Origin: Paludibacteraceae bacterium | Lineage (GTDB): Bacteria > Bacteroidota > Bacteroidia > Bacteroidales > Paludibacteraceae | DNA: 64,000 nucleotides | Direction of reading: 5' to 3' | Assembly: GCA_024401565.1 (NCBI GenBank) | Contig: JAKSKU010000010.1 | Coordinates: 1-64,000, forward strand | Shown: piece by piece, positions 5,845-41,212 of the stretch | Layout of the letters: every line of letters begins with the position of its first letter | Position numbering within the stretch: position 1 is the stretch's first letter | Notes under the pieces: generated by a model | Told to the model about the DNA's origin: nothing | Database searches by the model: none | Seen by the model: the letters and a program-made list of their open reading frames with translations, nothing else | Made by a program: the position numbers and the translations under genes

Positions 5845-5882
5845 AATCTATATCTTTGGAAGTTAGGATTTTTTGGCTCGTG

Positions 5883-5906
5883 AGAGACGTGGAACTCCAC
5901 GTCTCT
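5883..5906. repeat. Perfect 11-bp hairpin, REP-like (AGAGACG family)
   Basis: AGAGACGTGGA, loop AC, then TCCACGTCTCT, followed by ACG, in the gltB-gltD gap. It resembles the palindromes at 12192-12217 and 44969-44988, which share the GAGACG...CGTCT frame. There is no T-run, so it is not a convincing terminator. Confidence 0.7.
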
Positions 5907-5944
5907 ACGATTATCCCAACTTTTAATGATTAACTAAATTAATT

Positions 5945-8900
5945 TTACTCAGCTTTGATGTCAGCAATCTTGTTCTGAAGCTTCTTCAACTGTTCCTCCT
6001 GAAGTACTCTCTTGTACTCGATTGGAACAACCTGGATGAACTCCTCAACGTAGTGGTTCCAGTCGTCAAGCATTGTACGAGCAAGGCTTGATCCTGTGTA
6101 CAACCAGTGCTTGCGGATCAACTCGTGAAGCTCCTTACGGTAGCTTGCCTCTTCGATCAAGCTCAACTCAACCATATCCATGTTACAGAAGTAGTCGAAG
6201 TTGTGGTTCTTATCCCATACGTAAGCAACACCACCTGACATACCAGCTGCGAAGTTACGTCCTGTCTCACCAAGCACTACCACACGTCCACCTGTCATGT
6301 ACTCACAGCAGTGGTCGCCAGCACCCTCGATGACTGCGATAGCTCCTGAGTTACGTACACCGAAACGCTCACCTACGCGACCGTTAACGTAAAGCTCACC
6401 TGTTGTAGCACCATACAAACCAGTGTTACCTGCGATGATGTTCTTGTCTGCCTCGAAACTTGAACGTACTGGAGGAAGGATAGAAATACGTCCTCCTGAA
6501 AGTCCCTTACCGAAGTAGTCGTTAGTTTCACCCTCTAGCTTGAAGTTTACACCCTTAGCAAGGAATGCACCGAATGACTGACCTGCAGAACCCTTGAACT
6601 TAATATTAACTGTTGAATCTGGAAGACCCTCCTCACCATACTTCAATGCGATGGCTCCTGAAAGCATTGTTCCTACCGCACGGTCTGTATTCTTGATTGC
6701 GAAATCAAGGTTAACCTCCTGCTTCTTCTCGATTGCATCCTTAGCCTGAGCAAGAATATCAAAATCCTTAACGCCCTCAACCTTTGTGAATGGTCTGTGA
6801 TCCCAGCATAACGACTCTTTGCTGTCGACTCTTGCAAGTAGACGAGAGAAATCCAAAGTCTTATGCTTGTCACTCTCCATTGGCTTGATCTGGATCAACT
6901 CTGTATGACCGATGATATCCTCAAACTTCTTGAAGCCCATCTCTGCAAGGTACTCACGAACCTCCTGAGCCAAGTAAGTGAAGAAGTTTACAAGATACTC
7001 AGCGCGACCCATGAATCTTTCACGAAGCTTAGGATCCTGAGTTGCAACACCTACTGGACAAGTGTTTGTATTACACTTTCTCATCATTACACATCCAAGG
7101 ACAATCAAAGGAAGTGTACCGAAGCTGAACTCGTCTGCTCCAAGAAGAGCTGTCAAGATAACGTCGCGTCCTGTCTTCAACTGACCGTCTGTCTGCAAAC
7201 GAACACGTCCACGAAGACCGTTAAGAACCAATGTCTGCTGTGTCTCTGCAAGACCAATTTCAGGAGAGATACCAGCAAATCTCATTGAAGACGCTGGAGA
7301 TGCACCTGTACCACCTTCTGCACCTGAGATAACGATCAAATCTGCGTTAGCCTTAGCAACACCGGCAGCGATTGTACCAACACCGCTCTCAGCAACTAGC
7401 TTAACTGATACTGCAGCAGTTGGGTTGATATTCTTCAAGTCGAAGATCAACTGTGCAAGGTCCTCGATTGAGTAGATATCGTGATGAGGTGGAGGCGAAA
7501 TAAGTGAGATTCCAGGGATTGCGTTACGAGTCTTAGCGATGACCTCGTTAACCTTAAATCCTGGCAACTGACCACCCTCACCTGGCTTAGCTCCCTGAGC
7601 TACCTTAATCTGAATTTCCTCAGCGTTTACAAGGTATTCAGCAGTAACACCGAAACGACCAGAAGCGATCTGCTTTGTCTTAGATGATAGGCTCACACCG
7701 TCTACACTTGAATGGTAGCGTGCGTTGTCCTCACCACCCTCACCAGTGTTCGAACGAGCACCAAGCTTATTCATTGCAAGAGCGATTGCCTCGTGAGCCT
7801 CGATTGAAAGAGCTCCGAATGACATCGCACCTGTTACGAAGTGCTTAACGATGCTCTCTACTGGCTCAACCTGATCAACTGGGATTGGTTTTGCAGCCTT
7901 CTTGAAATCGAAGAAGTCGCGGATGAAGATCTGCTTCTCCTTGTTATCAACGTAGTTAGTGTATTCCTTATATTTCTTGTATGAACCCATACGAGTTGCA
8001 ATCTGCAATGTTGAGATTGTCTCTGGATTCCATGCGTGTGCGATACCGTCTTTTCTGTATGCGAACAATCCTGAATCTGGAACGATATCATTCTCAGTGG
8101 CTACCATAGCCTCATCGTGAAGCTTGATTGCGTCGTTAGCAATCTGCTTTAGACCGATACCACCGATTGTAGAAATCTCTGTTCCGAAGTATGTCTTCAA
8201 CAAGCTCTCGCTCAAACCGATACTCTCGAAGATCTTAGCGCCACGGTAAGAACGGATAGTTGAGATACCCATCTTAGACATGATCTTGTATAGACCCTTG
8301 CAAACAGCCTTGATGTAGTTGTGCTCAGCTGTAGCGTAATCCTCCTGAATCTCCTTGTTCTTTACAAGGTCGTCAAGAACTGCGAATGTCATGTATGGGT
8401 TCAATGCAGAAGCACCGTATCCAAGAAGCAATGCAGCGTGCATAACCTCACGGATCTCACCAGACTCAACGATCAAAGCAGTCTGAACACGTTTGCCGAC
8501 GCTGATCAAGTAGTGGTGAACGGCTGAGACTGCAAGCAAACATGGGATAACAGCGTGCTTGTCATCAACGTCTCTATCTGAAAGGATGATGTAGTTGATA
8601 CCCTTATCTACGCTCTCCTCTGCACTCTTGCATAGGTTGTCGATAGCCTCTTTTAGACCTTCCTCGCCCTTGCTTGCCTCAAACAACATTGGAAGCTTAG
8701 TAGTGACGAATCCCTTGTAACGGATGTTGCAAAGAATGTCAAGCTCTGCGTTTGAAAGGATTGGATGAGGAAGACGAACCATCTTACAGTTGCTCTCATC
8801 TGGGTTCAAGATACCAGGGCCAACCTTACCGATGTACTCAGTCAAGCTCATTACAAGCTCCTCACGGATAGGGTCGATAGCTGGGTTAGTTACCTGAGCG

Positions 8901-27344: not shown

Positions 27345-29030
27345 TCAGCACGGATTCTGCTTTTTCATGCTGATCGTTTTATCTTTTATAACTACTACTC
27401 TCTCCATCTTTTTCCTGACAGCGTCGTCGTGCGTGATCCAGATCACAGTTTTGCCCTTCAAATGAGTATCAAGATTGTCGAGTATACGAGACTCCGTCGA
27501 CTCATCAAGGGCTGAGCAGGCTTCATCGAAAATATAGATTTTGCCACGCTGAAGAAGCGAGCGTGCTATAGCTATACGTTGCGCCTGACCTTCACTTAAA
27601 CCGTTGCCTTGCTCAGCGCACGATATATCTAGGTTTTCCTCACGTCCAAACACGAAATCTGCGGCAGCAAGTCGCAAGGCATTCTTCATCTCTTCCTCCG
27701 TTGCGTTTGGATTTCCTAGCAACAAATTCTCTCTTATCGTGCCGCTCATCAGGCTGTTTCCCTGTGGCACGTAACAGAATAGATTTCTATACTGACGGAC
27801 TGGTTTTAATCCTTCGCCACTATCTTGATCGTCGTAAATGCAGACGCTTCCTTTGTCTGGCTCAAGAAGTCCAAGAAGGATTCTTATCAGTGTACTTTTA
27901 CCAGCTCCCGTCTCACCCATAATGGCAACATGTTCGCCAGGCTTAAATGTCTCGCATAGATTATCTATTGTTGGCTTCGGATTGCCAGGATAGGTATACG
28001 AAAGATTCTCGATCCGGATACCATAGTTTTTATCCGGATCACATTGTATCTCACCTTTTTCATCCATTTGTTCAGCTTCGTCTATATCTTTCAGACGGTC
28101 GATTGAAGAAATGGATTGTATGATCTGAGGCAAGAAATGGCTCATGTTCACTATCGGACGCTGCACTTGGTTCACAAGTTGCAAAAATGCCGTCATCATT
28201 CCGTATGTGACAGTGCCAGCCATGATTCCGTACGCTCCCCAGCAAAACGTGACGCTATAGCCAACCATAAAACCAGCCTGTATAAACATGTTGGCTCGTG
28301 TGGTATAGTTGACGCGGGAGATCACCGTCTCCCTGAGCTCATCTTGCCGACAACAGAGCATGGAAATCGAATCGTCTATCCTGTCCATGCAGATTAGCAG
28401 AATGCGTTTCAACAAATGTTCCTGGATATGGCTTTGGATTTCGCCTTCCTGACTGCGCACTCTATCTGTAAGTCGACGCAATCGTCGAAAAAAAAGTTTG
28501 CTGACGATGATTGCCACTGGCATGATGACAAGCAGCACCCAAAGCAGGGATTTTTCAAGAAGAAACAGCACTACAGAGGCACAAATGAGCTGTACACCCG
28601 ACAGCACGATATTAGGGATTTGATCGCAGACGGATATGGAGACAGTGCGTATATCCTCGCTGAGTCTGCTCATCGTATCTCCCGTGTGAAGTCTGTCGCG
28701 TCCGTTCCACTTGCCACGCATCGCCTTTGCAAATATCTTTCTTTGCAGATGATTGGTGATCTCAATACGATTGCGTTCCCTGATACGTCCGTTGACAAGC
28801 GACACCGTCAGCTGTAGCACCACATAGCCTGCAAGAAGCATAGTCCAATGTTGGATGTCGCCCGACACAGCTCCCGTAGCAATATCAACGATATGCTTGC
28901 ATAGATACACAAAAGAGAGCGACAGGGCAATCCTCAGGATTCCTACCGCACAATTCAACGCAATGCGTCGTCGTTCACCGTCGACGCTGCGCCACATCCA
29001 TACAAGAAGATTTATTTCACGACGCCACAT
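27345..29030 (-). CDS. ABC transporter, fused membrane and ATPase domains
   Basis: The 561-residue half-transporter has a six-helix exporter-type membrane domain (about 1-310) and a C-terminal ATPase. Walker A is GETGAGKST, the signature motif is NGLSEGQAQR, Walker B is IYIFDEACSALDE, and the switch His is in WITHDD. No N-terminal C39 peptidase is present, so any leader cleavage would need another enzyme. It is the last gene of a four-gene set with a PqqD-like protein, an S26-peptidase-nucleotidyltransferase fusion and an HprK-like kinase; its start overlaps the pqqD-like gene by 19 bases. This context points to export of a modified peptide or small molecule. Confidence 0.92.
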   Translation of the reverse strand: MWRREINLLVWMWRSVDGERRRIALNCAVGILRIALSLSFVYLCKHIVDIATGAVSGDIQHWTMLLAGYVVLQLTVSLVNGRIRERNRIEITNHLQRKIFAKAMRGKWNGRDRLHTGDTMSRLSEDIRTVSISVCDQIPNIVLSGVQLICASVVLFLLEKSLLWVLLVIMPVAIIVSKLFFRRLRRLTDRVRSQEGEIQSHIQEHLLKRILLICMDRIDDSISMLCCRQDELRETVISRVNYTTRANMFIQAGFMVGYSVTFCWGAYGIMAGTVTYGMMTAFLQLVNQVQRPIVNMSHFLPQIIQSISSIDRLKDIDEAEQMDEKGEIQCDPDKNYGIRIENLSYTYPGNPKPTIDNLCETFKPGEHVAIMGETGAGKSTLIRILLGLLEPDKGSVCIYDDQDSGEGLKPVRQYRNLFCYVPQGNSLMSGTIRENLLLGNPNATEEEMKNALRLAAADFVFGREENLDISCAEQGNGLSEGQAQRIAIARSLLQRGKIYIFDEACSALDESTESRILDNLDTHLKGKTVIWITHDDAVRKKMERVVVIKDKTISMKKQNPC

Positions 29031-29278
29031 CTCTTCATATCGTCAAGAAGACGGTTGACCGACTGCAACGCCTTCTCTTCAGTGATATTGTATACCTCAC
29101 AAGTCTTCTTTGCAATATCTTGGGCTTCAAATTCAGCGTCACCCATTGCATCCCACATAAAAGCCGCAGTTTCATTCAGCACAAGCATCTTGTTGACGTC
29201 GATGCTCTCCACTCCTGTGGCAATAATGACCTTTTCACCGCAGATATCTCTTAGTTCATATCCTTTTTGTTTCTTCAT
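29012..29278 (-). CDS. PqqD-like peptide-binding protein (RRE)
   Basis: The start at 29278 gives an 88-residue protein, MKKQKGYELRDICGEKVII onwards; the frame is open upstream but that part overlaps the previous gene out of its family's range. The pattern VNKMLVLNETAAFMWDAM followed by a helical C-terminus (EALQSVNRLLDDMKRCGVVK type) is that of PqqD-like proteins. These winged-helix RiPP recognition elements bind leader peptides and present them to modifying enzymes. It lies 11 bases after the S26-nucleotidyltransferase gene and overlaps the ABC transporter gene. The family match is good; which peptide it binds is inference. Confidence 0.85.
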   Translation of the reverse strand: MKKQKGYELRDICGEKVIIATGVESIDVNKMLVLNETAAFMWDAMGDAEFEAQDIAKKTCEVYNITEEKALQSVNRLLDDMKRCGVVK

Positions 29279-29289
29279 GACTGTATCTT

Positions 29290-30882
29290 TTATGAATTCT
29301 TTCCAAATAGTTTCCTCTTCGTTCTTTCTGTCCCGTATTCGACCAAAAGAGCGAACGCATAAAGTGATTCCACACCTATTGCAGGATACATTTTGACCGT
29401 ATTCATCACCATATAGCACAATGAAATCATTTTTCTCACCACCCAGTGACGATTTGTCTTTCTTTTGTAATAAGATTTACGGAAATTTCCGCCTTCCAGT
29501 ATCATTTCCCATACCTTCTGTGCAATCTCCCCATATTTCTCAGAATAACATGGCATCTCCTCCTTAGGTAAGCCAAACTTATTGACAGCAAGCCAACCTA
29601 TGATCTGCCATCCACGGAGCATCTTATAGTCACGCAGATCTCGGGATAGTTTTTCAGTGTCGATCTTGCCGTATGCGTCGTGCAGCAACACACACAAGTC
29701 GCAAATATGACGGAATCCAATACCGCTAGTGAGGAAATGGTGCCAAAGATGGAAGAATGTATAAAGTGAATTAAACTGTCGTGGCGGCACATTCACCTCT
29801 TTACCCAGAATCATCACCTTATCGCAAGACTCCGGCTTCAGCCAAGCTTCCGAATCCTTGATATAACGCTCTCTTACAGAAAAATAATGATGACGTTCGG
29901 TAATTCTATGTATCTCTATTGGAATGTTTCCATAATGTGCATGCGCATGCTTAGGACTCTCCAGATTCTGATCCAGGCCATCCTCTCCGACAAGTTCTGC
30001 TATACATTTGGTGGCACGTTCACAATTATCCCTGCCGACATAAACGTCAATATCTCCACACTGTCGCAGTATAGGATTAGGATAACGTGCGGCTGTGCCC
30101 TGCCCTTTCAATAGCACCGCATGTATTCCATGAGATTGGAAAAGTTCCATTATGCGGATGGCGACGGTATTGAGTTTCTCATGTGTCAGTAGAGACTTTC
30201 TTAGTTTTGCTGTCAGGTCGTCGCAAACCTCTTTAGTCGGTTTCATATTATCAGGCAGACGTCTGATAGCATCGATAGCGAGCCCCATCAGTGTCTGACG
30301 TTTAGCCAAGTCGAGCACAGCATTCCAACGTATGCCTCTATTCGCTATTATCTCTTCCGCTTTTTCCGTGGACTCTCCCCAAAGAGAGATGCGCGTAAGA
30401 GCAAGTAGCAGAGCCTCTTCTGCCTCAGTCGGTGTGATGCGTGAAAGATCCTTGAACGACCAAAATAGCATATTGTGCAGAGCCAGACAATAGCGACGCA
30501 CAACAAGTGGCAAATGCATCCATATCCATGAATAGAGTCTGTAGGCCAAACTGTCCGCGCTTTCTATCTTATCCCTACCCTTGCGGATAAAACCAACCGC
30601 TTTGCCATGGATATCGTCGACGTTGCATTTCTCGCAACTCATATTGCCGTCACCCATCAGCGTCACATCATCACCGTCGACCCTCACCACACGATGCGCC
30701 ACATGACGGTCTGCAGCCGGAGTTGCAAACACCACGTCTCCCACATTAATGGAATCCACAGGAGCAAGAACAATCTTGTCGCGTTCATGCACCAAATAAG
30801 GACGCATGCTGTTGCCGCGCCCAACAATGCTGACCGTACGACCTTGTCGCAATAACTCTATGGCAAAATCTGTTTCTTTCAT
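29290..30882 (-). CDS. S26-type peptidase fused to a NTP_transf_5 nucleotidyltransferase
   Basis: The ATG at 30882 (MKETDFAIELL) is preferred to an upstream TTG overlapping the previous stop codon. The 530-residue protein has two parts. Residues 1-105 form an S24/S26 signal-peptidase-like domain with GNSMRP (Ser25) and AHRVV (His63), the Ser-His arrangement of SipW/Sec11-type enzymes, but with no N-terminal membrane anchor. From about residue 150 to the end it matches the NTP_transf_5 family of uncharacterised nucleotidyltransferases, with VLLKGQGTAARYP and CGDIDVYV carrying the paired acidic residues. Both domains occur as separate genes in peptide-tailoring clusters; their fusion here links cleavage with nucleotidyl transfer. 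Function is inferred from domains and context. Confidence 0.8.
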   Translation of the reverse strand: MKETDFAIELLRQGRTVSIVGRGNSMRPYLVHERDKIVLAPVDSINVGDVVFATPAADRHVAHRVVRVDGDDVTLMGDGNMSCEKCNVDDIHGKAVGFIRKGRDKIESADSLAYRLYSWIWMHLPLVVRRYCLALHNMLFWSFKDLSRITPTEAEEALLLALTRISLWGESTEKAEEIIANRGIRWNAVLDLAKRQTLMGLAIDAIRRLPDNMKPTKEVCDDLTAKLRKSLLTHEKLNTVAIRIMELFQSHGIHAVLLKGQGTAARYPNPILRQCGDIDVYVGRDNCERATKCIAELVGEDGLDQNLESPKHAHAHYGNIPIEIHRITERHHYFSVRERYIKDSEAWLKPESCDKVMILGKEVNVPPRQFNSLYTFFHLWHHFLTSGIGFRHICDLCVLLHDAYGKIDTEKLSRDLRDYKMLRGWQIIGWLAVNKFGLPKEEMPCYSEKYGEIAQKVWEMILEGGNFRKSYYKRKTNRHWVVRKMISLCYMVMNTVKMYPAIGVESLYAFALLVEYGTERTKRKLFGKNS

Positions 30883-30899
30883 ATCAGTTGACCTATACG

Positions 30900-31787
30900 T
30901 CAATTACTTATTGCATTATGGCATACCACTGCGCTTTCTGGATCTGCAGTGCAATGCAAAATATAATTGTCGACCTGGGAACAGACCGCAGAGACTGTGT
31001 CGCAGATGCCAAGGTGCTTCTCCTTATCACATCGCAAAACGGAGCAGGATGACAACAGATGGTTGAAGCCGACCAGTTTAGCCACCTTCTCCACATAGTT
31101 TGCAGTATGCCGATCTATCTTGGTGACGGCAGCCAATTTTGCCTTCACCTGTCTATAGCAGGGTGTCTTGCCGCTCCACGGTGTGCCATATATCCAGACA
31201 GCACCGTCTACAACACGCACTGCAGGGTTATCATCGTTCATCAAGTCGCAACCAGGAATTGTCTTCAGCCAGTTTTGCGTCTGCGTGCTTTTGCCTGTGC
31301 CGCTACGAGCCACGAAAGCATAGCCCTTCTCATCATGACGCACCACAGAAGCGTGTATCAAAATTGTATGTCGACGTGCGCCAGCAAAGGCATATGCAAG
31401 CATCATGGCATTGTTCAATCCAAATTGACGCATTTTTTCATTTCCATAGACACGGCATCTATCCACGCTGAAATCGTGGTTGCCATGCATCACCGCACAC
31501 ACGTCACCTTTTATATTCTTTATGACAAATTGATAGCTTCCATCATGGAATCTGTTCACCACTATATCCCCGTTCAGTGTCTGCTCGACAGAATTGTATT
31601 CACACTCTTTCTCAGGCAACGTCGGCAACTGCTGATCCACAGTCATTTCCAATAATGGTTCGCTATTTGTATCCGCAACACAGAAATTTTGGAATGAAGG
31701 CAGCATATCCATACCCGATGTCCCGTCTGATTCGGAGAAACAGACAGTCACCTTCCATTCCGCTATGTCGAATATATATGATTGCAT
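30900..31787 (-). CDS. HprK-like kinase (HPr kinase-related)
   Basis: The start at 31787 (MQSYIFDIAEW) gives 295 residues. The C-terminal half resembles the catalytic domain of HPr kinase/phosphorylase: Walker A ARSGTGKST at 160-168, DLMNDDNPAV at 181-190, and GTPWSGK at 201-207. The N-terminal domain differs from true HprK, and the protein does not look like the Ser46-HPr kinase. Such HprK-related proteins accompany PqqD-like and nucleotidyltransferase genes in HPr-rel-A type and lasso-peptide clusters, where one group phosphorylates the peptide. It is the first gene of the four-gene set and lies directly after the terminator of the 41-residue peptide gene. Confidence 0.82.
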   Translation of the reverse strand: MQSYIFDIAEWKVTVCFSESDGTSGMDMLPSFQNFCVADTNSEPLLEMTVDQQLPTLPEKECEYNSVEQTLNGDIVVNRFHDGSYQFVIKNIKGDVCAVMHGNHDFSVDRCRVYGNEKMRQFGLNNAMMLAYAFAGARRHTILIHASVVRHDEKGYAFVARSGTGKSTQTQNWLKTIPGCDLMNDDNPAVRVVDGAVWIYGTPWSGKTPCYRQVKAKLAAVTKIDRHTANYVEKVAKLVGFNHLLSSCSVLRCDKEKHLGICDTVSAVCSQVDNYILHCTADPESAVVCHNAISN

Positions 31788-31856: not shown

Positions 31857-31890
31857 AAAAATCCCTTGAAAGCGGATGCTTTCAAGGGAT
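31857..31890 (-). terminator. Rho-independent terminator after peptide gene 1
   Basis: ATCCCTTGAAAGC and GCTTTCAAGGGAT form a perfect 13-bp stem around a 4-nt loop (31861-31890), followed on the minus strand by five T. The identical hairpin occurs at 37311-37340 after the second peptide gene. Confidence 0.9.
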
Positions 31891-31933: not shown

Positions 31934-32059
31934 TCAATCATCAAGGTCTTCATCTACATCTCCAAATCCAGGGCCTTCAAATGAACTTCCGAGAATATCC
32001 TGAGACTCAAGAACTACCTCTTCTAGAGTAGGTTCTATAAATTCCTTTTTGCTTGCCAT
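31934..32059 (-). CDS. 41-residue acidic peptide, copy 1 (possible RiPP precursor)
   Basis: This short gene begins MASKKEFIEPTLEEVVLES and ends GSSFEGPGFGDVDEDLDD. Its ATG follows the stop codon of the upstream secreted-protein gene by one base (TAAtATG), so translation is probably coupled. The N-terminal half has F-x-x-P-x-L, like the YxxPxL motif that PqqD-like domains bind in lasso-peptide leaders; the C-terminal half is Gly-rich and acidic with no Cys. A second copy (37384-37509) differs at only three residues. Short Bacteroidales proteins with this kind of start are common and mostly unexplained. The precursor role is inferred from the motif and from the tailoring genes directly downstream. 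Confidence 0.7.
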   Translation of the reverse strand: MASKKEFIEPTLEEVVLESQDILGSSFEGPGFGDVDEDLDD

Positions 32060-32060
32060 A

Positions 32061-33248
32061 TTACTTATTGGTTTTAATTACTTTCTTGCCATTAACAATA
32101 TAGATTCCAGTAGGAACATTGTCAAGACTATTTAGTCTAACACCATTGATAGTGAAAATACCAACATTGTCGTTAACATCATCAAATGAAGGTGCTTCAT
32201 CAATGTCCTCACCAAGAACCATAATATTGAATTTTAACGCTCTTGTCTCTGCATCGATTGTATGACCTCCATGACCATATCCTATGGATTCCGCATGCAT
32301 ATACCATTTATTTGGTTTAAGCGTTGCAGATGATCCTGAACGATAACTGATATTTCCACTTGATGCTATGTAATAATTGTTATCACCCTTCTTTAGTTCC
32401 ATATTATTATAGATACCGATCAAGGTATATACAGTACGAGAAGTTGAAAACTCCACATAATCAGCTTTGTCTGAACTCTCCAGAGTCGTATTCTCTGCTA
32501 CAATTACATTAGAACCAGATTTCTTAGGACGAATCAAGTATGGCACATTTGAAATGGTTTTGCCTGATTTGATAGGTGATATGATCATAATCAGATCATC
32601 ACTACCATCCAATTGGGCATCTCCATTTGTATCCTTAGTTGGGCAAATCGTAAATATCTCAGCTACATCAAAATCAGTGTATTTTGTAGCGTCAATTGCG
32701 AATGGTACAAATAGAGGCTGCCATGCCTTATTTTCTATAACTGTTGTGCTGAAGTTACGAGTATAAGTAATCTTCTTAGCCTTTACATCATACGGATTTG
32801 AGTAGGCAACAGCATCTGTCAACACGATATCATCGGCATACCAGTTGCCGTTAGCATCCTTGCCAATTACATTTGCTGGAAGTGTAACACCTGCTGTTTC
32901 TGTGTCGTAATCAACATACATCAACTGGTTTGGTTCAAGTGACTTAGCCTTGCCAGTAATATCAGTCCAAGTAGCAGTACCAGATGTTTGAGATGTACCA
33001 CCAACAGTTTCATAAGACAAGCTTTTCACTGAGATTTCAGGCACTTCTGAAAACATGATTGTTTCGAAACCGCCATCGACAGCACCATTCCTTGAATGAA
33101 CTGACAGGCTTGGCTCGTCATCAACCATGATGTCCACTACATCATCAAGGCTGAACACCTTTGTGTCTCCGTCCGCCGTGATTCCCGTTATCTTGTTCGC
33201 CATAGCGTATAACGGAAGAAGAGACATTATAATTAAGAACTTCCTCAT
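32061..33248 (-). CDS. Secreted protein with a C-terminal domain shared with the 1,233-residue protein
   Basis: The 395-residue protein has a signal peptide (MRKFLIIMSLLPLYAMA) and a short N-terminal strand region, KITGITADGDTKVFSLDD. From about residue 77 (SLSYETVGGTSQ) to the end it is a close copy of the last 325 residues of the protein at 37511-41212. The tail, NGVRLNSLD then GIYIVNGKKVIKTNK, is the short form of end seen on many Bacteroidales surface proteins and is reminiscent of type IX secretion sorting tails. No enzymatic motif is visible. It is 33 bases after the BspA-like gene and directly before peptide gene 1, so the three probably form one operon. Confidence 0.8.
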   Translation of the reverse strand: MRKFLIIMSLLPLYAMANKITGITADGDTKVFSLDDVVDIMVDDEPSLSVHSRNGAVDGGFETIMFSEVPEISVKSLSYETVGGTSQTSGTATWTDITGKAKSLEPNQLMYVDYDTETAGVTLPANVIGKDANGNWYADDIVLTDAVAYSNPYDVKAKKITYTRNFSTTVIENKAWQPLFVPFAIDATKYTDFDVAEIFTICPTKDTNGDAQLDGSDDLIMIISPIKSGKTISNVPYLIRPKKSGSNVIVAENTTLESSDKADYVEFSTSRTVYTLIGIYNNMELKKGDNNYYIASSGNISYRSGSSATLKPNKWYMHAESIGYGHGGHTIDAETRALKFNIMVLGEDIDEAPSFDDVNDNVGIFTINGVRLNSLDNVPTGIYIVNGKKVIKTNK

Positions 33249-33281
33249 TGTCTTAAAATTTTAATAAATGAAATCCTTGTT

Positions 33282-36200
33282 TTAGTAGTAGTACTCAATT
33301 GTCCAAGTTCCTGGGAAAGAAGATTCAACCTTACCCTTCAAACTTACTGGCACACGTGCTGTCTTAAAGCTCGAGCAACCATAGCATACATTTGGTCCGA
33401 TATAAGTCACCGATTTAGGGATTTCGAGGCCTCTGAGGCCTGTGCAACCATCGAATGCATAGCTTTCAATTGAAGTTACCGAATTAGGGATTACTATGTT
33501 TATAAGGCTTTCGCATCCACTGAATGCAAACTCTCGGATTGAAGTTACTGAGTTAGGGATTCCGATGCTTTGGAGTTTTGTGCAACCACTGAATACCTCC
33601 TTTTCGATTGTAGTTACCGAGTTAGGAATTTCGATGCTTGTGAGTCTTGTGCAACCTTTGAATGCCCCAGAACCTATTGAAGTTACTGAGTTAGGGATTT
33701 CGATGCTTGTGAGTCTTGTGCATCCACTGAATGCAACCTCTCCGATTGTAGTTACCGAATTCGGGATATTGATACTTGTAAGATTTGTGCAATTTTGGAA
33801 TGCATACTTTCCGATTGAAGTTACCGAGTTACCAATGACTACGCTTGTGAGGCTTGTGCATTTAAAAAATGCAAACTCTCTGATTGAAGTTACCGAATTA
33901 GGAATTTCGATGCTTGTAAGGCTTGTGCAATTTTGGAATGCTTCATATCCGATTGAAGTTACGGTGTTAGGGATTTCGACGCTTGCAAGGTATTCGCAAC
34001 TAAGGAATGCCTTATAGATTGAAGTTACTACATACACCTTTCCGTCATACAACACATGCGAAGGAATTTTTACCTGTCTTGCTCCGTCATTTATAATGCC
34101 ATTAACCTCTGCCGTCATTTTTGTTTTGTCGTACGAGAACTTCAAGCCTGTTTGGTCGGGAGAAACATACCACTTAATTTCACAATTTGATGGGAATGCA
34201 GATTCAACCTTACCATTCAATCTTGATGGCACAAATGCTGTATTTAATTTCAAGCATCCATAGAAAGCATTTTCTCCGATTGAAGTTACTGACTCAGGAA
34301 TTACGATACTTGTAAGTGGGCTAAGGGCGAAAGCTCCATCTCCGATAGTTGTTACCGAGTTAGGAATTTCGATGCTTGTAAGACCTGCGCACATTGAGAA
34401 TGCTATATTGCCTATTGAAGTTACCGTGTTAGGGATTACGATGCTTGTAAGGTTATTACTAGACAAAAATGCACTCTCGCCAATTGAAGTTACAACATAC
34501 TCTTTACCACCATACAATACTACAGAAGGTATTATAACTTCGGTTACCGTCTTATTTTCAAATCCAGTCACACTTGCAGTCATTGTTGCTTCATCGTACT
34601 TGAAAGTCAAGCCTGTCAATGGGTCATACCACACAATTTCGCAAGTTGATGGGAATGCATTATTTCCAAGTTCACAACCCAATGGCACACGTGCTGTCTT
34701 TAGGTTCCGACAATCCGCAAACGCACTACTTCCGATTTTCTTTACCGAACTTGGTATTTCGATGCTTGTCAAGTTTACACAATATAAAAATGACTGTTCG
34801 GCGATAGAAGTTACCGAATTGGGGATCTCAATACTTGAGTAACTGGCATATGTAAATGCATTAAACTTGATTGAAGTTACATCGTATATGACACCATTAT
34901 ACACAACTTGCGATGGTATTTTGATCTCTGATGAATCACCATAATTCTTTATACCACTGACACTTGCAGTATTGAATTCATTATTGTACGAGAACTTCAA
35001 GCCTGTTTGGTCGGCAGAAGCATACCACACAATTTCGCAAGTTGATGGGAATGCAGATTCAACCTTACCCTTCAAACTTACCGGCACACGTGCTGTCTTT
35101 AGGCTTGTGCAGACATAGAATGCTTTCTCTCCGATAAAAGTAACCGAATTAGGAATTTCGATGCTTGTGAGGCTTTCGCAACCTAAGAATGTATAATTTC
35201 CGATTCTAGTTACCGAGTTACCAATGACTACGCTTGTGAGGCTTTTGCAACCTGAGAATGCATCCTCTCCGATTGAAGTTACCGAGTTAGGAATTTCGAT
35301 GCTTGTGAGGTTTGTGCATCCACTGAATGCATCCTCTCCGATTTTAGTTACCGAGTTAGGAATTTCGATGTTTGTGAGGTTTGTGCAACCTGAGAAGGCA
35401 TAATCAGCGATTATAGTAACCGAGTTAGGAATTTCAATGCTTGTAAGGCTTGTGCAAGCATTGAATGCACCCTCTCCGATTTCAGTTACCGAATTAGGGA
35501 TTTTAACGCTTGTAAGACCTTCGCAATAACAGAATGCCTTTGTTCCGATTGTAGTTACCGAGTTACCAATGACTACGCTTGTGAGGCTTTTGCAACCTGA
35601 GAATGCATCCTCTCCGATTGAAGTTACCGAGTTAGGAATTTCGATGCTTGTGAGACTTACACAATTCTCGAATGCATCCTTTCCGATTGAAGTTACATCA
35701 TACTCCTTACCGCCATAAAATACTTTTGAAGGTATTTCTACTGAAGTCACATCCTTATTATAAACTCCAGTCACACTTGCTGTCTTATTTGTGTTATCAT
35801 ACATAAACTTCAAGCCTGTTTCTTCGACAGGAATGGCATACCACTCAATCACGCAAGTTGATGGGAAAGTATTTGAAGGTATCTTACCCTTCAAACTTAC
35901 CGGCACACGTGCTGTCTTTAGGTTGTCGCAATCCTCGAATGCAGAAGCTCCGATTGAAGTTACCGAATTAGGGATATTGATGCTTGTTAGGCTTATGCAG
36001 TTAACGAATGCAGACTCTCCGATTGAAGTTACCGATTCAGGTATTTCGATACTTGTGAGGCTAGTGCACCACGTGAATGCAGACTCTCCGATTGAAGTTA
36101 CCGATTCAGGTATTTCGATACTTGTGAGGCTAGTGCACCAAGCAAATGCAGTCCTTCCAATTTCTGTTACCGAGTTAGGTATTACGACACTTGTGAGGCT

Positions 36201-36533
36201 TTTACAAGGAGAGATTGCATAGTCTCCGAATGAAGTTACATCATACTCCTTACCGTCATACGATACTTTAGAAGGTATTTCTACTGAAGTTACATACCAA
36301 TCTTCAACCCCAGTCACACTTGCAGTCATTGCTGTTTCATCGTACGAGAAACTCAATCCTGTTTTTTCGGCAGGTACAGCAGCATACTTTACACTTATTC
36401 TTTCAATGTCATCAGCTAAATACTTAACTTGCGTACCGTCCTTTAGCAACACATATACCATTTTGGGCGGCTGCTGCGCAAAGGCTATGCACGAAAGCAG
36501 AGCCACACACAACGATAGTAAAAACTTTTTCAT
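33282..36533 (-). CDS. BspA-like leucine-rich repeat surface protein
   Basis: The 1,083-residue protein has a signal peptide (MKKFLLSLCVALLSCIAFA) and an array of LRR_5 (BspA-type) repeats of about 23 residues, typified by LTSIEIPNSVTSIGEDAFSGC. The repeats are arranged in five larger modules (about 57-232, 237-504, 508-636, 638-788, 794-1083). Each opens with TGLxFxYD...TASVTG and closes with a variant of FPSTCEIVWY; the last closes FPGTWTIEYYY at the C-terminus. There is no sorting tail. BspA proteins bind host proteins or other cells; a surface adhesin role is likely but the ligand is unknown. A long structured leader precedes it. Confidence 0.9.
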   Translation of the reverse strand: MKKFLLSLCVALLSCIAFAQQPPKMVYVLLKDGTQVKYLADDIERISVKYAAVPAEKTGLSFSYDETAMTASVTGVEDWYVTSVEIPSKVSYDGKEYDVTSFGDYAISPCKSLTSVVIPNSVTEIGRTAFAWCTSLTSIEIPESVTSIGESAFTWCTSLTSIEIPESVTSIGESAFVNCISLTSINIPNSVTSIGASAFEDCDNLKTARVPVSLKGKIPSNTFPSTCVIEWYAIPVEETGLKFMYDNTNKTASVTGVYNKDVTSVEIPSKVFYGGKEYDVTSIGKDAFENCVSLTSIEIPNSVTSIGEDAFSGCKSLTSVVIGNSVTTIGTKAFCYCEGLTSVKIPNSVTEIGEGAFNACTSLTSIEIPNSVTIIADYAFSGCTNLTNIEIPNSVTKIGEDAFSGCTNLTSIEIPNSVTSIGEDAFSGCKSLTSVVIGNSVTRIGNYTFLGCESLTSIEIPNSVTFIGEKAFYVCTSLKTARVPVSLKGKVESAFPSTCEIVWYASADQTGLKFSYNNEFNTASVSGIKNYGDSSEIKIPSQVVYNGVIYDVTSIKFNAFTYASYSSIEIPNSVTSIAEQSFLYCVNLTSIEIPSSVKKIGSSAFADCRNLKTARVPLGCELGNNAFPSTCEIVWYDPLTGLTFKYDEATMTASVTGFENKTVTEVIIPSVVLYGGKEYVVTSIGESAFLSSNNLTSIVIPNTVTSIGNIAFSMCAGLTSIEIPNSVTTIGDGAFALSPLTSIVIPESVTSIGENAFYGCLKLNTAFVPSRLNGKVESAFPSNCEIKWYVSPDQTGLKFSYDKTKMTAEVNGIINDGARQVKIPSHVLYDGKVYVVTSIYKAFLSCEYLASVEIPNTVTSIGYEAFQNCTSLTSIEIPNSVTSIREFAFFKCTSLTSVVIGNSVTSIGKYAFQNCTNLTSINIPNSVTTIGEVAFSGCTRLTSIEIPNSVTSIGSGAFKGCTRLTSIEIPNSVTTIEKEVFSGCTKLQSIGIPNSVTSIREFAFSGCESLINIVIPNSVTSIESYAFDGCTGLRGLEIPKSVTYIGPNVCYGCSSFKTARVPVSLKGKVESSFPGTWTIEYYY

Positions 36534-36610
36534 ACTTTACTCGTTATTATAATTTTTGTTTAGTCCTGTTCCCTACGGATGAAAAAAGATAAATCCTTCT
36601 CACATAGACA

Positions 36611-36940
36611 CAAAAAGCGTGGGAACTTTTACCTTGTTGCTCTATCTAACATGTTAGGCTCTGGAAAAACCTTTAAGAGTAAATAAAGCAACGGAAAGAG
36701 ACCCACGCATTCAGTATATCGAAATCCAACGCTAGACCATACTAATATATAGTAAGGTCACACGAAGGAAAGACATACACCCCCGCAGTCATCTACCGTA
36801 ACTTTGCCCCTTTTCCTTAAAATTTTCCAGATTTTAGCTGTAGGTAAGCAAAGCGAGTAAACGCTTGTCATGTATATGTAACACCACCCTATTGCCTAAC
36901 AACACCCACAAGTGAGTCTCTTTCAGCAAAATAAAGTAAT
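36611..36940 (-). ncRNA. Candidate structured leader or small RNA before the BspA-like gene
   Basis: The 850-base gap upstream of the BspA-like gene contains no gene but has many pairings on the minus strand. A promoter sits at its 5' end (36948-36976). Stems are GACCTTACTA/TAGTATGGTC (36735-36759), GCGTGGG/CCCACGC (36702-36708 with 36617-36623), nested GTTGCT/AGCAAC (36636-36641 with 36687-36692) and the CTAACATGTTAG palindrome (36646-36657). CCCACGC is followed by five T, so the outer stem could terminate a transcript of about 330 nt some 80 bases before the gene. It may be an attenuator, a riboswitch-like leader or an independent RNA. I could not match it to tmRNA, RNase P or 6S RNA. Confidence 0.5.
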
Positions 36941-36947
36941 GCCGGCG

Positions 36948-36976
36948 CAAAAGTACTACATTTTTGAAACATACAA
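36948..36976 (-). promoter_or_regulatory. Promoter upstream of the structured leader
   Basis: TACTTTTG (36948-36955, minus strand) fits TAnnTTTG, with TTG 18 bases upstream (36974-36976). Transcription would begin near 36940 and read towards the BspA-like gene. Confidence 0.5.
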
Positions 36977-37045
36977 TGCAAATTGATTAACAATTATTTC
37001 CAAAATTTCTTGCAATTCGAACAATAGAACAATCATTAACCTCTC

Positions 37046-37170
37046 TGAAATTTAAAATTTGGCAAACAGAACTCTACCAAGTATTTTGAAATTTAAAATT
37101 TGGCAAAACAGAACTCTGCCAAGCGTTTTGAAACATTCAATTTGACAAACAGAACTCTGGCGTTCGATTT
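37046..37170. repeat. Three AT-rich tandem repeats of about 41-42 bp
   Basis: Copies begin near 37046, 37087 and 37129. The first two share TGAAATTTAAAATTTGGCAAA and then ACAGAACTCT with CCAAG; the third is diverged but keeps GACAAACAGAACTCT. They lie between the leader promoter and a terminator. No open frame fits them. Confidence 0.75.
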
Positions 37171-37234
37171 GCAAAATATTAAAAGGCTTGTTCAGTCTTT
37201 CATTTCGCAAAATTCTAGTTTAAATTACCAACCA

Positions 37235-37268
37235 ACAAAAAAGAGACTGAATCTCACGGTTCAGTCTC
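37235..37268 (-). terminator. Rho-independent terminator
   Basis: GAGACTGAA and TTCAGTCTC pair around an 8-nt loop (37243-37268). On the minus strand six T follow the stem. It backs up the hairpin at 37311-37340 behind the second peptide gene. Confidence 0.8.
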
Positions 37269-37304
37269 CTTTAAGTTGTTTAATGTATTCGGCGAAGTCA
37301 AAAT

Positions 37305-37340
37305 AAAAACATCCCTTGAAAGCGGATGCTTTCAAGGGAT
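37305..37340 (-). terminator. Rho-independent terminator after peptide gene 2
   Basis: This is the same 30-base perfect hairpin as at 31861-31890, here followed on the minus strand by G and five T. The flanking bases down to the peptide stop codon are also the same in both copies. Confidence 0.88.
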
Positions 37341-37383
37341 ATGTTCGTCATCTGCTATATGCAAATGATTGTTTCAAATTTTG

Positions 37384-37509
37384 TCAATCATCAAGGTCTT
37401 CATCTACATCTCCAAATCCAGGGCCTTCAAATGAACTTCCGAGAATATCCCGAGACTCAAGAACCACCTCTTCTAGAGTAGGTTCTATAAATTCTTTTTT
37501 GTTTTCCAT
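37384..37509 (-). CDS. 41-residue acidic peptide, copy 2 (possible RiPP precursor)
   Basis: The product begins MENKKEFIEPTLEEVVLES, then RDIL, and ends GSSFEGPGFGDVDEDLDD. Compared with copy 1 it differs only at positions 2, 3 and 20 (Glu, Asn and Arg here). The start codon lies one base after the stop of the 1,233-residue protein (TAGtATG). The identical C-terminal 21 residues and conserved FxxPxL motif suggest either recent duplication or strong constraint. If these are precursors, the tailoring genes 5.6-10 kb downstream would act on both. No signal peptide is present, which fits a cytoplasmic precursor exported by a dedicated transporter. Confidence 0.68.
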   Translation of the reverse strand: MENKKEFIEPTLEEVVLESRDILGSSFEGPGFGDVDEDLDD

Positions 37510-37510
37510 A

Positions 37511-40500
37511 CTACTTATTTGTTTTAATTACTTTCTTTCCATTAACAATATAGATTCCGGCAGGAGCATTGTCAAGACTATTTAGTCTCACACCATTGAC
37601 AGTGAAAATCATATTTTCTGTGCCAACATTGCCGTTAACATCATCAAATGATGGTGCTTCATCAATGTCTTCTCCAATAACCATGATATTGAATTTTAAC
37701 GCTCTTGTCTCTGCATCTACCGCATGTTCTCCATGACCATATCCTATGGATTCCGCATGCATATACCATTTATTTGGTTTAAGCGTTGCAGGTGATCCTG
37801 AACGATAACTGATATTACCACTTGTTGCCATGTAATAATTGTTATCACCTGGCTTTAGTTCCATATTATCATAGACACCAGTCACAGTATATTCTGTATT
37901 AGAAGTTGAAAACTTCACATAATCAGCTTTGTCTGAACTCTCCAGAGTTGTATTCTCTGCAATTATGACATTAGAACCAGATTTCTTAGGGCGAATCAGG
38001 TATGGCACATTTGGAATAGTCTTGCTAGATTTAACAGGAGATATGACCATAACCATATCATCATTATCATCTAATTGTCCATTGCCATCTGTATCCTTAG
38101 TTGGACAAATCGTAAATATCTTTGCGACATCAAAATCAGTGTATTTTGTGACATCAATTGCGAATGGCACAAACAAAGCCTGCCATGCCTTGTTTCCTAC
38201 AACTGTTGTGCTGAAGTTACGAGTATAAGTAATCTTCTTAGCCTTTACATCATACGGATTTGAGTAGGCAACAGCATCTGTCAACACGATATCATCAGCA
38301 TACCAGTTGTCGTTAGCATCCTTGCCAATTACATTTGTTGGAAGTGTAACGCCAAGTGTTTCAGTGTCGTAATCAACACACATCAACTGGTTTGGTTCAA
38401 GAGACTTTGACTTGCTAAAAATAACAGACCAAGTGGTAACACCAGAAATTTGAGATGTACCACCAACAGTCTCATAAGACAAACCTTCTAGATTTACTTT
38501 AAGCACCAATGCACATTTTGCAGAAACCTGTCGTCCTATACCATCTGTCACAGTAAACGTCACATTTTTCAAAACATTTTTTGTTATAAATGGGATACCA
38601 GAAAGCACTCCAGTAGCAGCATCTAACGAAAGGTTTAATTCAGTTGGCAAACCTGTCACGCTATAAGTATAAGGTTTAATTCCGCCCTCCACATAGTCAG
38701 CAACAGAGAATGACATTGGTATTCCATTGTAAAGAGTTAGTGCCTCTAATTCTTCAGTAAATCGTACTCCTCCGTCAGCAGCAAGAAGTTCCTTGTCATT
38801 CTTGATATGAATATACTTAGAAGCATCCTCTGTCGTCTGAGGAAGCAAAATCCAATCATCCACACTTAATTTGCTGGTGTTGGAATAATACAAGACATGA
38901 TCATTTGGAACTGTGATCTTTCCGTTTTCGCAGACACCAATTTGTCCACCAAACTCTATTGTAGCATTGTCAACAATTTCAATATCACCCTTTACCACAT
39001 GACCTTTATCAGGAGAAGCTACTATCATATGCAAGTCACCATCACCAGTAATCTTTATGCTATTAGGGAATCCGCAGGTAATATAATTGGTTGTAATAAC
39101 GATTTCGCTTGTTCCAGTTACATTAACTGTTTCTACCTTACCTTCAGTATCAACAAAAGAAGTGAACGATGAAGATGTATATCTAATGTGAGTATTGTTA
39201 ATCATCAAAGTTTTACTCTCAGGTTGATAACTAATTAATCCTCTACCATCGTAGATTTTGTCTTTATTGATTTCAGTTACATTAACTCCAGCCACCTTAA
39301 ACTCATAGTTCTCGAACACTCGACCAACATATATCTCGATAGATTCACTCTGACCAGCAGCATCTGTAAGAGTGATTGTTGCTGTTGAGGTTGTATCTTT
39401 AGTAGAAGTAGGAGCACCCGAAATCACACCGGTAGTAGCATCAATAGTCACTCCTGCAGGAAGACCTGTTGCGGTATATTTACAAGGAGACACCGCATTG
39501 GATACAGCACTTGCACAATTTATAGGTGTAATCTCTACTGCACGAACCATTCTATTGTCTGGAAGGTCAAAAAAGTCGTCATCAGCAAATATCATCTTTT
39601 CACTTACCAAAGGCGTTGTATATGTACCAGTTGCTGAATTACCAAGGAAATCAGTCACCTTTATCGTTACAGTTTTACCTCCAGCATCCGCAGTTGTATA
39701 TGTACCGCTGATCACTCCTGTCTCACTATCAATAGAAAGTCCTGCAGGAAGACCAGTTGCACTATAATAGTATGGTGTCTTTCCACCAGCCACTGCCTTC
39801 AAATCCACGTTCACACTCTTACCTATGTAGCCTAGAGCCTGCAATGCTTGTTTAGATCCAGAATTAAACACAAAAGTTGGTTTAGCATAAGTGGATGCAT
39901 CATAATATCCAAAATTTGCATACCTCTTGTTCAGACCACCTACAGTTGCAGAAGACAGTGTGACATTGGAAACTGGCAATGTATTTCCTGTAGCAACAAA
40001 ATAATTTGTGGTGTTTTCTAGATTAAGAGTCTTTGTTCCTACCATCACATTATTTGTAGCACCGTCTTTACCTGTTGATGTCTTCACAGATAGATAACAT
40101 TGTTCAGACACTTCAATATCATCATCAAAAGCATAAGAATCACCGATAGTATTATGCACTGACAGTTTCAAAGAACCTGTACCAGAGAATGATGCACTAT
40201 ATCCCGAAAAAGCAGAATACGAGTCTCCAAAAGCAGAAACTTCTATTGAATTTGAACCATATAAATTTATATCCGAAATACTACGCGTTGATCCAGAGTA
40301 TGTCACATTATTTCTGACATCTTCAGCAATACCATCATTAACATCGTAATACACAAATGGTTTACCTACGCTGCTATATTTAATATTTGCATTTGTAAAA
40401 GATAGAGTTTTTCCTGAAAGTTGTACAGTTCCATCTCCAAAAATATCTCTATAGTTAGTGTAATCTACCTGCTTACCCGCAACATACAAATTGGTTTTTT

Positions 40501-41212
40501 TTAGAGAATTAACTCGTAAATACTTATAGCCATCTGTAGTGGAAAAAGTATGTGAGTGTCCTTGAAGAGTAGCTGACATTATTGATGAATTTGTCAGTGT
40601 AGAATATCTGACATTGGGGTTGCCACTTGCAATCATCATGTGATTATCAGACACAATAGCATTTCCGCTGCCAACCATTCTTGCATTGGTAGCATTATCA
40701 GTACGGACAAATTCTGCATAGCCTGTGAAAGCAGAAGAAACATTTATTCCATGCAATGGGGTGACTCCTTGAGCATCCGGATACTCTGAATTAAAAGTAG
40801 CACTCAAGCTACCGCTTCCCGACAAAGCGACATCATCAGCAAATCCCATAAGACCAGAGCCCAAAGGTAATGTAACATCTATGACATTTGAACCCTCTAA
40901 CTCTAATATAAGAATATTTGATTGAAGAAGTGTTGTAGTTGTTTCACCTTTAATAAAGTACTGCCAGCCATAAGGTACTTTACTTTTTAATGTAACATTC
41001 TTAAGTGTTAAATAGCCATTATTGTAATAGATTTCTCCAAAAACAGAGCCTGCTCCTAACTTTTCATTCAATTTCGGAACAAGGTTCCTTTCGGGACCAA
41101 CTTCGCTGGTCACGAAATCAACACCGCAAATGCTGATTCTTAGTGAACTCGCTCCCCACGCATGCGAAATGCAGAGCAGCAACGTCAAAATAAATAAGTA
41201 AAATCTTTTCAT
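37511..41212 (-). CDS. Large secreted protein with Ig-like (He_PIG) domains
   Basis: The 1,233-residue protein has a signal peptide (MKRFYLFILTLLLCISHAWG). Residues from about 30 to 470 are rich in beta strands and in Ser, Thr, Asn and Gly, suggesting a beta helix or similar surface fold. Three putative Ig (He_PIG) domains follow near 477-545, 564-627 and 840-907, each with the pattern SATGLPAGLSIDSETGVISG. The final 325 residues duplicate the domain in the 395-residue protein and end GIYIVNGKKVIKTNK. It is probably surface-exposed. The gene is directly followed by peptide gene 2, repeating the arrangement at 31934-33248. Confidence 0.82.
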   Translation of the reverse strand: MKRFYLFILTLLLCISHAWGASSLRISICGVDFVTSEVGPERNLVPKLNEKLGAGSVFGEIYYNNGYLTLKNVTLKSKVPYGWQYFIKGETTTTLLQSNILILELEGSNVIDVTLPLGSGLMGFADDVALSGSGSLSATFNSEYPDAQGVTPLHGINVSSAFTGYAEFVRTDNATNARMVGSGNAIVSDNHMMIASGNPNVRYSTLTNSSIMSATLQGHSHTFSTTDGYKYLRVNSLKKTNLYVAGKQVDYTNYRDIFGDGTVQLSGKTLSFTNANIKYSSVGKPFVYYDVNDGIAEDVRNNVTYSGSTRSISDINLYGSNSIEVSAFGDSYSAFSGYSASFSGTGSLKLSVHNTIGDSYAFDDDIEVSEQCYLSVKTSTGKDGATNNVMVGTKTLNLENTTNYFVATGNTLPVSNVTLSSATVGGLNKRYANFGYYDASTYAKPTFVFNSGSKQALQALGYIGKSVNVDLKAVAGGKTPYYYSATGLPAGLSIDSETGVISGTYTTADAGGKTVTIKVTDFLGNSATGTYTTPLVSEKMIFADDDFFDLPDNRMVRAVEITPINCASAVSNAVSPCKYTATGLPAGVTIDATTGVISGAPTSTKDTTSTATITLTDAAGQSESIEIYVGRVFENYEFKVAGVNVTEINKDKIYDGRGLISYQPESKTLMINNTHIRYTSSSFTSFVDTEGKVETVNVTGTSEIVITTNYITCGFPNSIKITGDGDLHMIVASPDKGHVVKGDIEIVDNATIEFGGQIGVCENGKITVPNDHVLYYSNTSKLSVDDWILLPQTTEDASKYIHIKNDKELLAADGGVRFTEELEALTLYNGIPMSFSVADYVEGGIKPYTYSVTGLPTELNLSLDAATGVLSGIPFITKNVLKNVTFTVTDGIGRQVSAKCALVLKVNLEGLSYETVGGTSQISGVTTWSVIFSKSKSLEPNQLMCVDYDTETLGVTLPTNVIGKDANDNWYADDIVLTDAVAYSNPYDVKAKKITYTRNFSTTVVGNKAWQALFVPFAIDVTKYTDFDVAKIFTICPTKDTDGNGQLDDNDDMVMVISPVKSSKTIPNVPYLIRPKKSGSNVIIAENTTLESSDKADYVKFSTSNTEYTVTGVYDNMELKPGDNNYYMATSGNISYRSGSPATLKPNKWYMHAESIGYGHGEHAVDAETRALKFNIMVIGEDIDEAPSFDDVNGNVGTENMIFTVNGVRLNSLDNAPAGIYIVNGKKVIKTNK

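Follow-up and report, generated by a model that had tools for sequence, protein, structure and literature searches.

A kinase, leader-peptidase and exporter operon of Paludibacteraceae as a probable trans-acting module for linear phosphopeptides

A 64,000-nucleotide stretch of DNA from a Paludibacteraceae bacterium (assembly GCA_024401565.1, contig JAKSKU010000010.1, positions 1 to 64,000; hereafter the window) harbours on its minus strand four adjacent genes that encode an HprK-like kinase, a leader-peptidase domain fused to a nucleotidyltransferase, a PqqD-like protein of the discrete RRE type (RRE, recognition element of ribosomally synthesized and post-translationally modified peptides) and an ABC exporter. 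Together with small peptides, most of them encoded elsewhere in the genomes, the four genes probably constitute a trans-acting module for the maturation and export of linear phosphopeptides, of the type published from Bacillota as linear polyphosphorylated peptides (LPP; PMC13381572; this and the other papers cited by PMC number are covered here in part). The gene set, its catalytic residues, the co-occurrence of peptides and kinase, the serine register of the peptides, the covariation of RRE and leader and the linkage of the peptides to exported-type genes were observed directly in the genomes compared. Leader binding, phosphorylation, cleavage and export are predicted by homology to described systems, and the group added by the nucleotidyltransferase and the role of the product are guesses.

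The four-gene operon and its relatives

The four genes in the window genome (G000, a Bacteroidales genome of 2.18 Mb, 78% complete; G and L numbers denote genomes and loci) are real, rightly located and form a single operon, as had been proposed from the letters of the window (the sequence-only reading): all four open reading frames (ORFs) are present, with 17 nt between the kinase and the fusion gene, 11 nt between the fusion and the PqqD-like gene, and a 19-nt overlap between the latter and the exporter gene. The ATG at 30,882 was taken as start of the fusion gene instead of the listed TTG at 30,903, and the PqqD-like protein, whose listed ORF is longer upstream, was taken to start with MKKQKG; both choices agree with the starts in the nearest relative that carries the module. 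This relative (G006, Paludibacteraceae from horse faeces, of the same genus as the window; record JAKSKX010000014.1, locus L039) carries the four genes in identical order, its proteins being 69% (kinase), 56% (fusion), 78% (RRE) and 77% (exporter) identical to those of the window. Thus the four-gene set is not a chance assembly.

Family membership was clear for the exporter (ABC_membrane, 1.5e-27; ABC_tran, 4.3e-26; no C39 peptidase domain among its matches, as the sequence-only reading had it), for the RRE (PqqD, 1.1e-11) and for the nucleotidyltransferase part of the fusion (NTP_transf_5, 2.6e-40), in which the DxD motif is kept in 36 of 36 aligned rows (the window counted twice). The kinase matched HprK_rel_A (TIGR04352) weakly, at 23.6 bits against a curated cut-off of 200, and the NCBIfam HPr-rel-A label was therefore rejected; a search of the PDB with its profile gave no E value under 0.1 (0.48 for Hpr kinase 1ko7). 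Its conserved residues comprise His145, the SGTGKS P-loop (G163, G165, K166 and S167) and Asp185/186, with His145 and Lys166 present in all 52 rows (the window counted twice). The S24/S26 peptidase domain was weak alone (Peptidase_S24, 2.3e-4; 21.3 bits vs a cut-off of 23.3). A 17-row profile of it reached the SEC11C structure at 8.4e-4 and matched the SEC11A structure too, and none of the 51 aligned sequences (52 rows, the window twice) departs from its Ser, His and Asp. The single window RRE found no useful match in the PDB, but the 17-row RRE profile matched the LppB structure 9x8z (2.2e-4) and the lasso RREs TfuB1 (3e-7), TbiB1 (1.2e-4) and PbaB1 (4.2e-4). The Asn at the place of LppB Asn33 is invariant in 46 of 46 RRE rows.

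The distribution of the kinase was determined in two overlapping sets with one genome per species, so that all genome counts below are not independent by descent. The kinase family was found in 60 of 393 Bacteroidales genomes (order set; 11-row profile, E≤1e-8), with E<1e-37 in 30 of them and weaker values (5e-10 to 4e-26) in the other 30; in the family set it was found in 46 of 199 relatives. Among 52 kinase loci, a fetched subset of all kinase matches that includes the window and several loci ending at contig edges, the region within 7 kb of the kinase contains the peptidase in 49, the RRE in 42, the NTP transferase in 27, the exporter in 29 and all of these in 16. The pattern scan of genome contigs matched 22 stretches (2 loci). 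The same four-gene order, which the sequence-only reading had suggested looking for in other genomes, recurs in L039. Among the 24 kinase loci with both domains, peptidase and nucleotidyltransferase share one gene in the window and L039 only. Profile matches at L126 (4095-6377) show the peptidase domain joined to an ABC exporter within a single reading frame, comparable to the peptidase-containing ABC transporters but with a serine peptidase.

Paeninodin-type lasso clusters, too, use kinase, RRE and nucleotidyltransferase for tailoring, and since many genomes are fragmented and that of the window is 78% complete, a lasso pathway could have its cyclase and B2 protease elsewhere or overlooked. 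We consider this very improbable. Transglut_core3, the B2 domain, had no match in the window genome, and in the 80 of 90 kinase genomes that were searched it occurred in 13, none of them kinase-linked (12 on other contigs, one 369 kb off). In the window genome Asn_synthase matched AsnB alone (950 bits), which adjoins glutamate synthase genes, and among the matches to this family listed for the 80 genomes none comes closer than 10 kb to the kinase. B2 co-occurs with a cyclase in G274, G287, G379, G169, G442 and G165, always away from the module, and the module has a leader peptidase of its own. With no linked B2 found, and no linked cyclase among the matches listed, the lasso pathway was rejected, in keeping with the earlier description of a peptide-tailoring set that lacks a linked lasso cyclase or transglutaminase-like protease. 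The AsnB gene lies in the window itself, outside the module, where a housekeeping asparagine synthase B adjoins the small and large subunits of glutamate synthase (2492-10426).

Probable precursor peptides and their ties to the module

The window encodes two 41-residue peptides that are 93% identical (Table 1), the second of which was absent from the sequence-only reading. Peptides of the same family in relatives share a [Y/F]xxP leader that is followed by a variable tail. A chance ORF was rejected as explanation of the first peptide, given its second window copy and its homologues in relatives.

Peptides and kinase occur in the same genomes. In the order set (peptide E≤1e-3), both were found in 36 genomes, the kinase only in 24, a peptide only in 3 and neither in 330 (p=2e-31); with the 10 genomes of the training peptides removed, the counts are 26, 24, 3 and 330 (p=2e-23). 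In the family set, scored with a second profile and with the training genomes kept, they are 23, 23, 6 and 147, respectively (p=2e-12); at peptide E≤0.01 this set has 12 peptide-only genomes, of which G001-G004 and G008 have seemingly spurious matches, inside ORFs of 266-375 aa. Within the genus of the window (nine genomes), the kinase is present in only two, and peptides (E≤1e-3) in only those two; two of the other seven genomes are under 80% complete.

The peptides carry a serine in a narrow register, counted from the leader Pro (P). Of 77 distinct peptides, 74 have a Ser at P+15 to P+17 (37 of the 77 at P+16), and none has one at P+13, P+14 or P+18. In three peptides (L199, L209 and L213) the LPP core start AQS appears in the same register. 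The 77 are those with extendable reading frames, from the part of the matches that was fetched, after empty or two-residue products (L185 twice, L192, L216, L219 and L220) had been dropped.

RRE and leader covary. At the place of LppB Asp70, Asp is found in all 30 pairable genomes with Tyr leaders, and another residue in the five genomes in which only Phe peptides are present (Ser in the window, G006 and G086, Glu in G099 and Ala in G069; p=3e-6, uncorrected for descent), with no exception among the 35 genomes in which both RRE and peptide were seen. The window is of the Phe/Ser kind, and thus its RRE and its two 41-mers fit each other. The tally began with 20 Asp/Tyr genomes (Tyr of G247 entered by hand) and four non-Asp/Phe genomes. 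Ten Asp/Tyr genomes (G455, G472, G328, G336, G483, G502, G442, G295, G062 and G091) and one non-Asp/Phe genome (G086) were later added by hand. Left out were G012 (Ser), G022 (Glu), G431 (Lys, alignment unsure) and some Asp genomes, in which no peptide was seen, and G015, G028, G075, G195 and G409, which have Tyr peptides but no RRE seen. In the kinase tree the Phe kind falls into at least two clearly separate branches (the window pair and the rows of genus g5); the count of three changes is rough, as G012 is labelled Phe from its RRE alone and G022 is not so labelled. Taken together, co-occurrence, serine register and covariation tie the peptides to the module.

A peptide was detected within 1.5 kb of the kinase at 13 of the 52 loci and none at the other 39, and G173 and G229 have at least 17 peptide matches each (E≤0.1). 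The sequence-only reading had paired the window cluster with a 41-residue peptide for testing. The evidence supports this peptide (peptide 1) as a substrate, not as a member of the cluster. It is separated from the kinase operon by a terminator-like hairpin (z=-4.08; none of 200 shuffles equally stable), which has the longest stem of the seven terminator-like sites found in the region, where 4.4 were expected from shuffles, and the peptide starts directly behind a secreted-type gene. In G006, no precursor was found when looked for within the L039 locus, and the two peptides of this genome are on contigs other than that of the module, 1-2 nt downstream of the gene for a secreted-type protein in each case. 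Because a terminator lies in between and the nearest relative encodes the homologues elsewhere, the 41-mer is not part of the operon, and a precursor inside it was rejected; it is very probably a substrate as a member of a scattered multi-copy family. That the genes occur in many genomes with no small ORF nearby, named beforehand as a finding that would speak against a peptide cluster, is literally true of most loci; the evidence favours precursors encoded elsewhere. The two G006 peptides (L204:3692-3826 and L205:3732-3875) have diverged, with leaders FIEP and FFEP and different secreted-type proteins in front; in the second, three Cys surround and follow the Ser register.

Table 1. Module genes, precursor peptides and adjoining features of the window
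Feature	Position	Strand	Remarks
HprK-like peptide kinase	30900..31787	-	295 aa; first gene of the operon
Peptidase-nucleotidyltransferase fusion	29290..30882	-	SEC11/SipW-type (S24/S26) leader-peptidase domain, then NTP_transf_5 nucleotidyltransferase
PqqD-like discrete RRE	29012..29278	-	88 aa; Asn35 invariant, aligned to LppB Asn33; Ser73 at the place of LppB Asp70
ABC exporter	27345..29030	-	MsbA-like
Terminator-like hairpin	31861..31890	-	13-bp stem; between peptide 1 and kinase operon
Precursor peptide 1	31934..32059	-	41 aa; leader motif FIEP; predicted core G24-D41, beginning GSS
Secreted-type protein paired with peptide 1	32061..33248	-	1 nt between its stop and the peptide start
Precursor peptide 2	37384..37509	-	41 aa
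Large secreted-type protein coupled to peptide 2	37511..41212	-	He_PIG Ig-like repeats

Coupling to a gene for an exported-type protein is frequent among the scattered peptides. Of 63 peptides (61 scattered ones and the two of the window), 48 have a neighbour gene, that is, one on the same strand, of at least 120 aa and within 80 nt, and 15 have none. By a simple hydrophobicity rule rather than a trained predictor, at least one such neighbour is exported-like in 39 of the 48, as compared with 25 of 104 other genes tested alike (p=3e-11) and 51 of 234 in a first control in which genes were counted singly. The partners, among the neighbours searched, are diverse: Ig-like repeats, BspA-type leucine-rich repeats, a T9SS sorting tail, a FISUMP-like lipoprotein (below cut-off) and one MAC/perforin protein. 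The last of these (L218:1540-3462; Pfam 3.7e-12) has a precursor-like peptide directly behind it.

This coupling bears on an explanation in which the peptides are unmodified accessory proteins, helpers in secretion or anchoring of the adjoining surface proteins, while the module acts on something else and the two occur in the same genomes owing to lifestyle or to mobile DNA that they share. Besides the frequent exported-type neighbours, the lack of a detected peptide near the kinase at most loci speaks for it, as does the finding that within the genus the carrier protein of peptide 1 (E≤1e-5) was found only in the two module-bearing genomes. It would leave unexplained why RRE and leader residues covary across the 35 genomes, why the leader bears the motif bound by lasso and LPP RREs together with a register-fixed Ser, and why peptides lie in or beside the module at 13 loci, and we regard it as unlikely. 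Maturation of the peptides by the module remains the preferred reading.

In the window itself, 31934-41212 forms an array of two secreted-protein/peptide units, between which a BspA-type leucine-rich-repeat protein is encoded (33282-36533; Pfam LRR_5, 9.8e-225). Over its last 327 residues, the 395-aa protein paired with peptide 1 is 83% identical to the end of the 1233-aa protein coupled to peptide 2. Further afield, similar-looking genes lie about 250-370 nt upstream of nine scattered peptides (G173, G441 and G229; L169, L177, L179, L182, L183 and L184); the four that were searched all match PDDEXK_2, a PD-(D/E)XK nuclease family transposase. Such transposase-like genes may help to spread peptide/lipoprotein pairs.

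Proposed maturation route and points against it

In the proposed route, the PqqD-like RRE would bind the precursor leader via its [F/Y]xxP motif and present it, the HprK-like kinase would phosphorylate a Ser three residues into the core, and the SEC11/SipW-type Ser-His-Asp domain would remove the leader. In the window the cut is probably between Leu23 and Gly24, giving GSSFEGPGFGDVDEDLDD; in peptide 1 the register points to Ser25 or Ser26 as the predicted phosphosite. The product, probably with a group added to its phosphate by the fused nucleotidyltransferase, would be secreted by the ABC exporter. The candidate substrates known in the window genome are the two 41-mers, each coupled to the gene of a secreted surface-type protein and not to the module. 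The earlier suggestion of a phosphorylated or nucleotidylated peptide made by a non-lasso route is supported, the predicted product being a linear peptide with phosphate and possibly further modifications.

The same module and substrates might also serve another chemistry, in which the phosphate is an activating group and the nucleotidyltransferase makes a nucleotidylated, glycosylated or cyclised product. The fusion of peptidase and nucleotidyltransferase in the window genus speaks for it, as do the link of the pseudomycoidin nucleotidyltransferase to hexose addition on the phosphate (PMC8498205) and the end product of LPP, which is open, LppN being inactive in a heterologous host (PMC13381572). 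The nucleotidyltransferase, however, lies within 7 kb at only 27 of the 52 kinase loci (some cut by contig ends) and so looks late or optional, and we hold this chemistry to be rather unlikely, though the most serious of the alternatives to a linear phosphopeptide route.

Several points weigh against that route. It is based on computation, with the chemistry predicted by homology, and the structure model of the peptidase domain (pLDDT 47) was too poor for use. Half of the 60 order-set kinase matches are weak and, where sampled, form a separate branch. A peptide at E≤1e-3 is lacking in 24 of the 60 kinase genomes of the order set (10 at E≤0.1) and in 23 of the 46 of the family set; peptides this short and variable can readily escape a search, yet some modules may have other substrates. 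Conversely, peptides without a detected kinase were found in G356, G407 and G409 (order set) and in G039, G043, G062, G082, G090 and G109 (family set), with other module genes present in G043, G062 and G109. Most of the peptides used to train the peptide profile came from near a module, and the profile includes the Ser column. Three of the 77 peptides have no register Ser, two of them being intact ORFs, and the HQxIxFET part of the LPP leader is not conserved. Few Phe lineages (genera g1 and g5) underlie the covariation, and G109, which has Phe as well as Tyr peptides, falls outside the count, as no RRE was seen there. The peptide-profile matches in G039, G082 and G090, where no kinase was detected, have E values of 1e-5 to 1e-4.

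A wider picture, which we put forward tentatively and at somewhat less than even chances, is that one module serves many scattered, fast-varying precursors per genome, each with its own surface protein or lipoprotein, that the products act with or on these partners, and that RRE/leader codes have switched between Tyr/Asp and Phe/non-Asp. If the linear phosphopeptide reading is true, the LPP class is common in Bacteroidales, beyond the restriction to Bacillota published in May 2026, and is easily missed by mining only beside the enzymes, since many precursors are unlinked. The tie to surface proteins would then be a testable lead to function, and the natural switch from Tyr/Asp to Phe/non-Asp is a ready test of leader choice by the RRE.

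Comparison with known systems

Among the papers retrieved and examined from the open-licence literature of PubMed Central, the gene set was found described in PMC13381572 only, and the covered parts of a 2023 BAGEL4 survey of Bacteroidales (PMC10352776) do not mention it. A new kind of cluster, as had been considered possible for the window, is not supported, the same enzyme set having been published in 2026 as LPP in Bacillota.

With HprK-rel-A/HPr-rel-A systems (TIGR04352, TIGR04353) the module shares an HprK-like P-loop kinase and a PqqD-like chaperone. It differs in the kinase score, far under the curated cut-off, and in that just 2 of 17 RREs matched PqqD_rel_X. Phosphorylated lasso peptides of the paeninodin/pseudomycoidin type (PMC8498205) likewise have an HprK-like kinase, a PqqD-like B1, a nucleotidyltransferase and an ABC exporter, and a fusion of leader peptidase and nucleotidyltransferase is reported there as well, the peptidase being B2. 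The module here has instead a Ser-His-Asp peptidase domain, with no linked macrolactam cyclase or transglutaminase-like B2 protease. Bsf, a lasso peptide of Bradymonas (PMC10368454), is phosphorylated on core Ser3 by its kinase with assistance of the RRE, and its leader reads Y(-17)xxP(-14)xL; by the published numbering this Ser3 is at P+16, the position occupied in 37 of the 77 peptides here. Unlike the present module, Bsf has a cyclase, B2 and an in-cluster precursor.

The closest system is the lpp cluster of Paenibacillus alginolyticus DSM5050 (Popov et al., Nat Commun, 20 May 2026; PMC13381572). There, Ser3 receives one to four phosphates in a kinase-dependent manner, the leader is cleaved by a SipW-like peptidase with assistance of the RRE, and final product and role are left open. 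In the LppB-LppA structure, Asn33 fixes a kink at the leader Pro and Asp70 hydrogen-bonds the Tyr of YxxP, while PbaB1 has Gln79 at the Asp70 place, bonding Trp. One to three candidate precursors per cluster were reported, with the leader consensus YxxPxVLxHQxIxFETxxS and Ser3 at P+15. LPP are termed restricted to Bacillota, though most, not all, peptidase hits were from there. That set dates from 2019 and came from a BLASTP search with a single Paenibacillus peptidase, precursors being sought within 5 kb, which may explain why members in Bacteroidales and unlinked precursors were missed.

The module resembles LPP in its enzymes and, in part, in its peptides. As judged from residues and profile, the peptidase is of the archaeal/SipW type with Ser-His-Asp. 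The discrete RRE is recognized by its profile match to LppB, in the window with an FxxP leader and Ser at the Asp70 place. HprK-like kinase, NTP transferase and MsbA-like exporter are clustered with them in the window and L039, and there is no cyclase. Of the LPP leader consensus, only [Y/F]xxP and the Ser at P+15 to P+17, conserved in the core at about the phosphorylated position, are plainly shared. It departs from LPP in its Bacteroidales host, in the Phe that replaces Tyr in the window leader with a matching change of the RRE, in the fusion of peptidase and nucleotidyltransferase and in the HQxIxFET part, which is not conserved here. Most precursors, moreover, are scattered, numerous in single genomes and often coupled to surface-protein genes, in place of one to three within the cluster. 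Because the enzyme features agree with LPP and the in-cluster precursors do not, the window system is best placed as one that works like LPP rather than as plain LPP.

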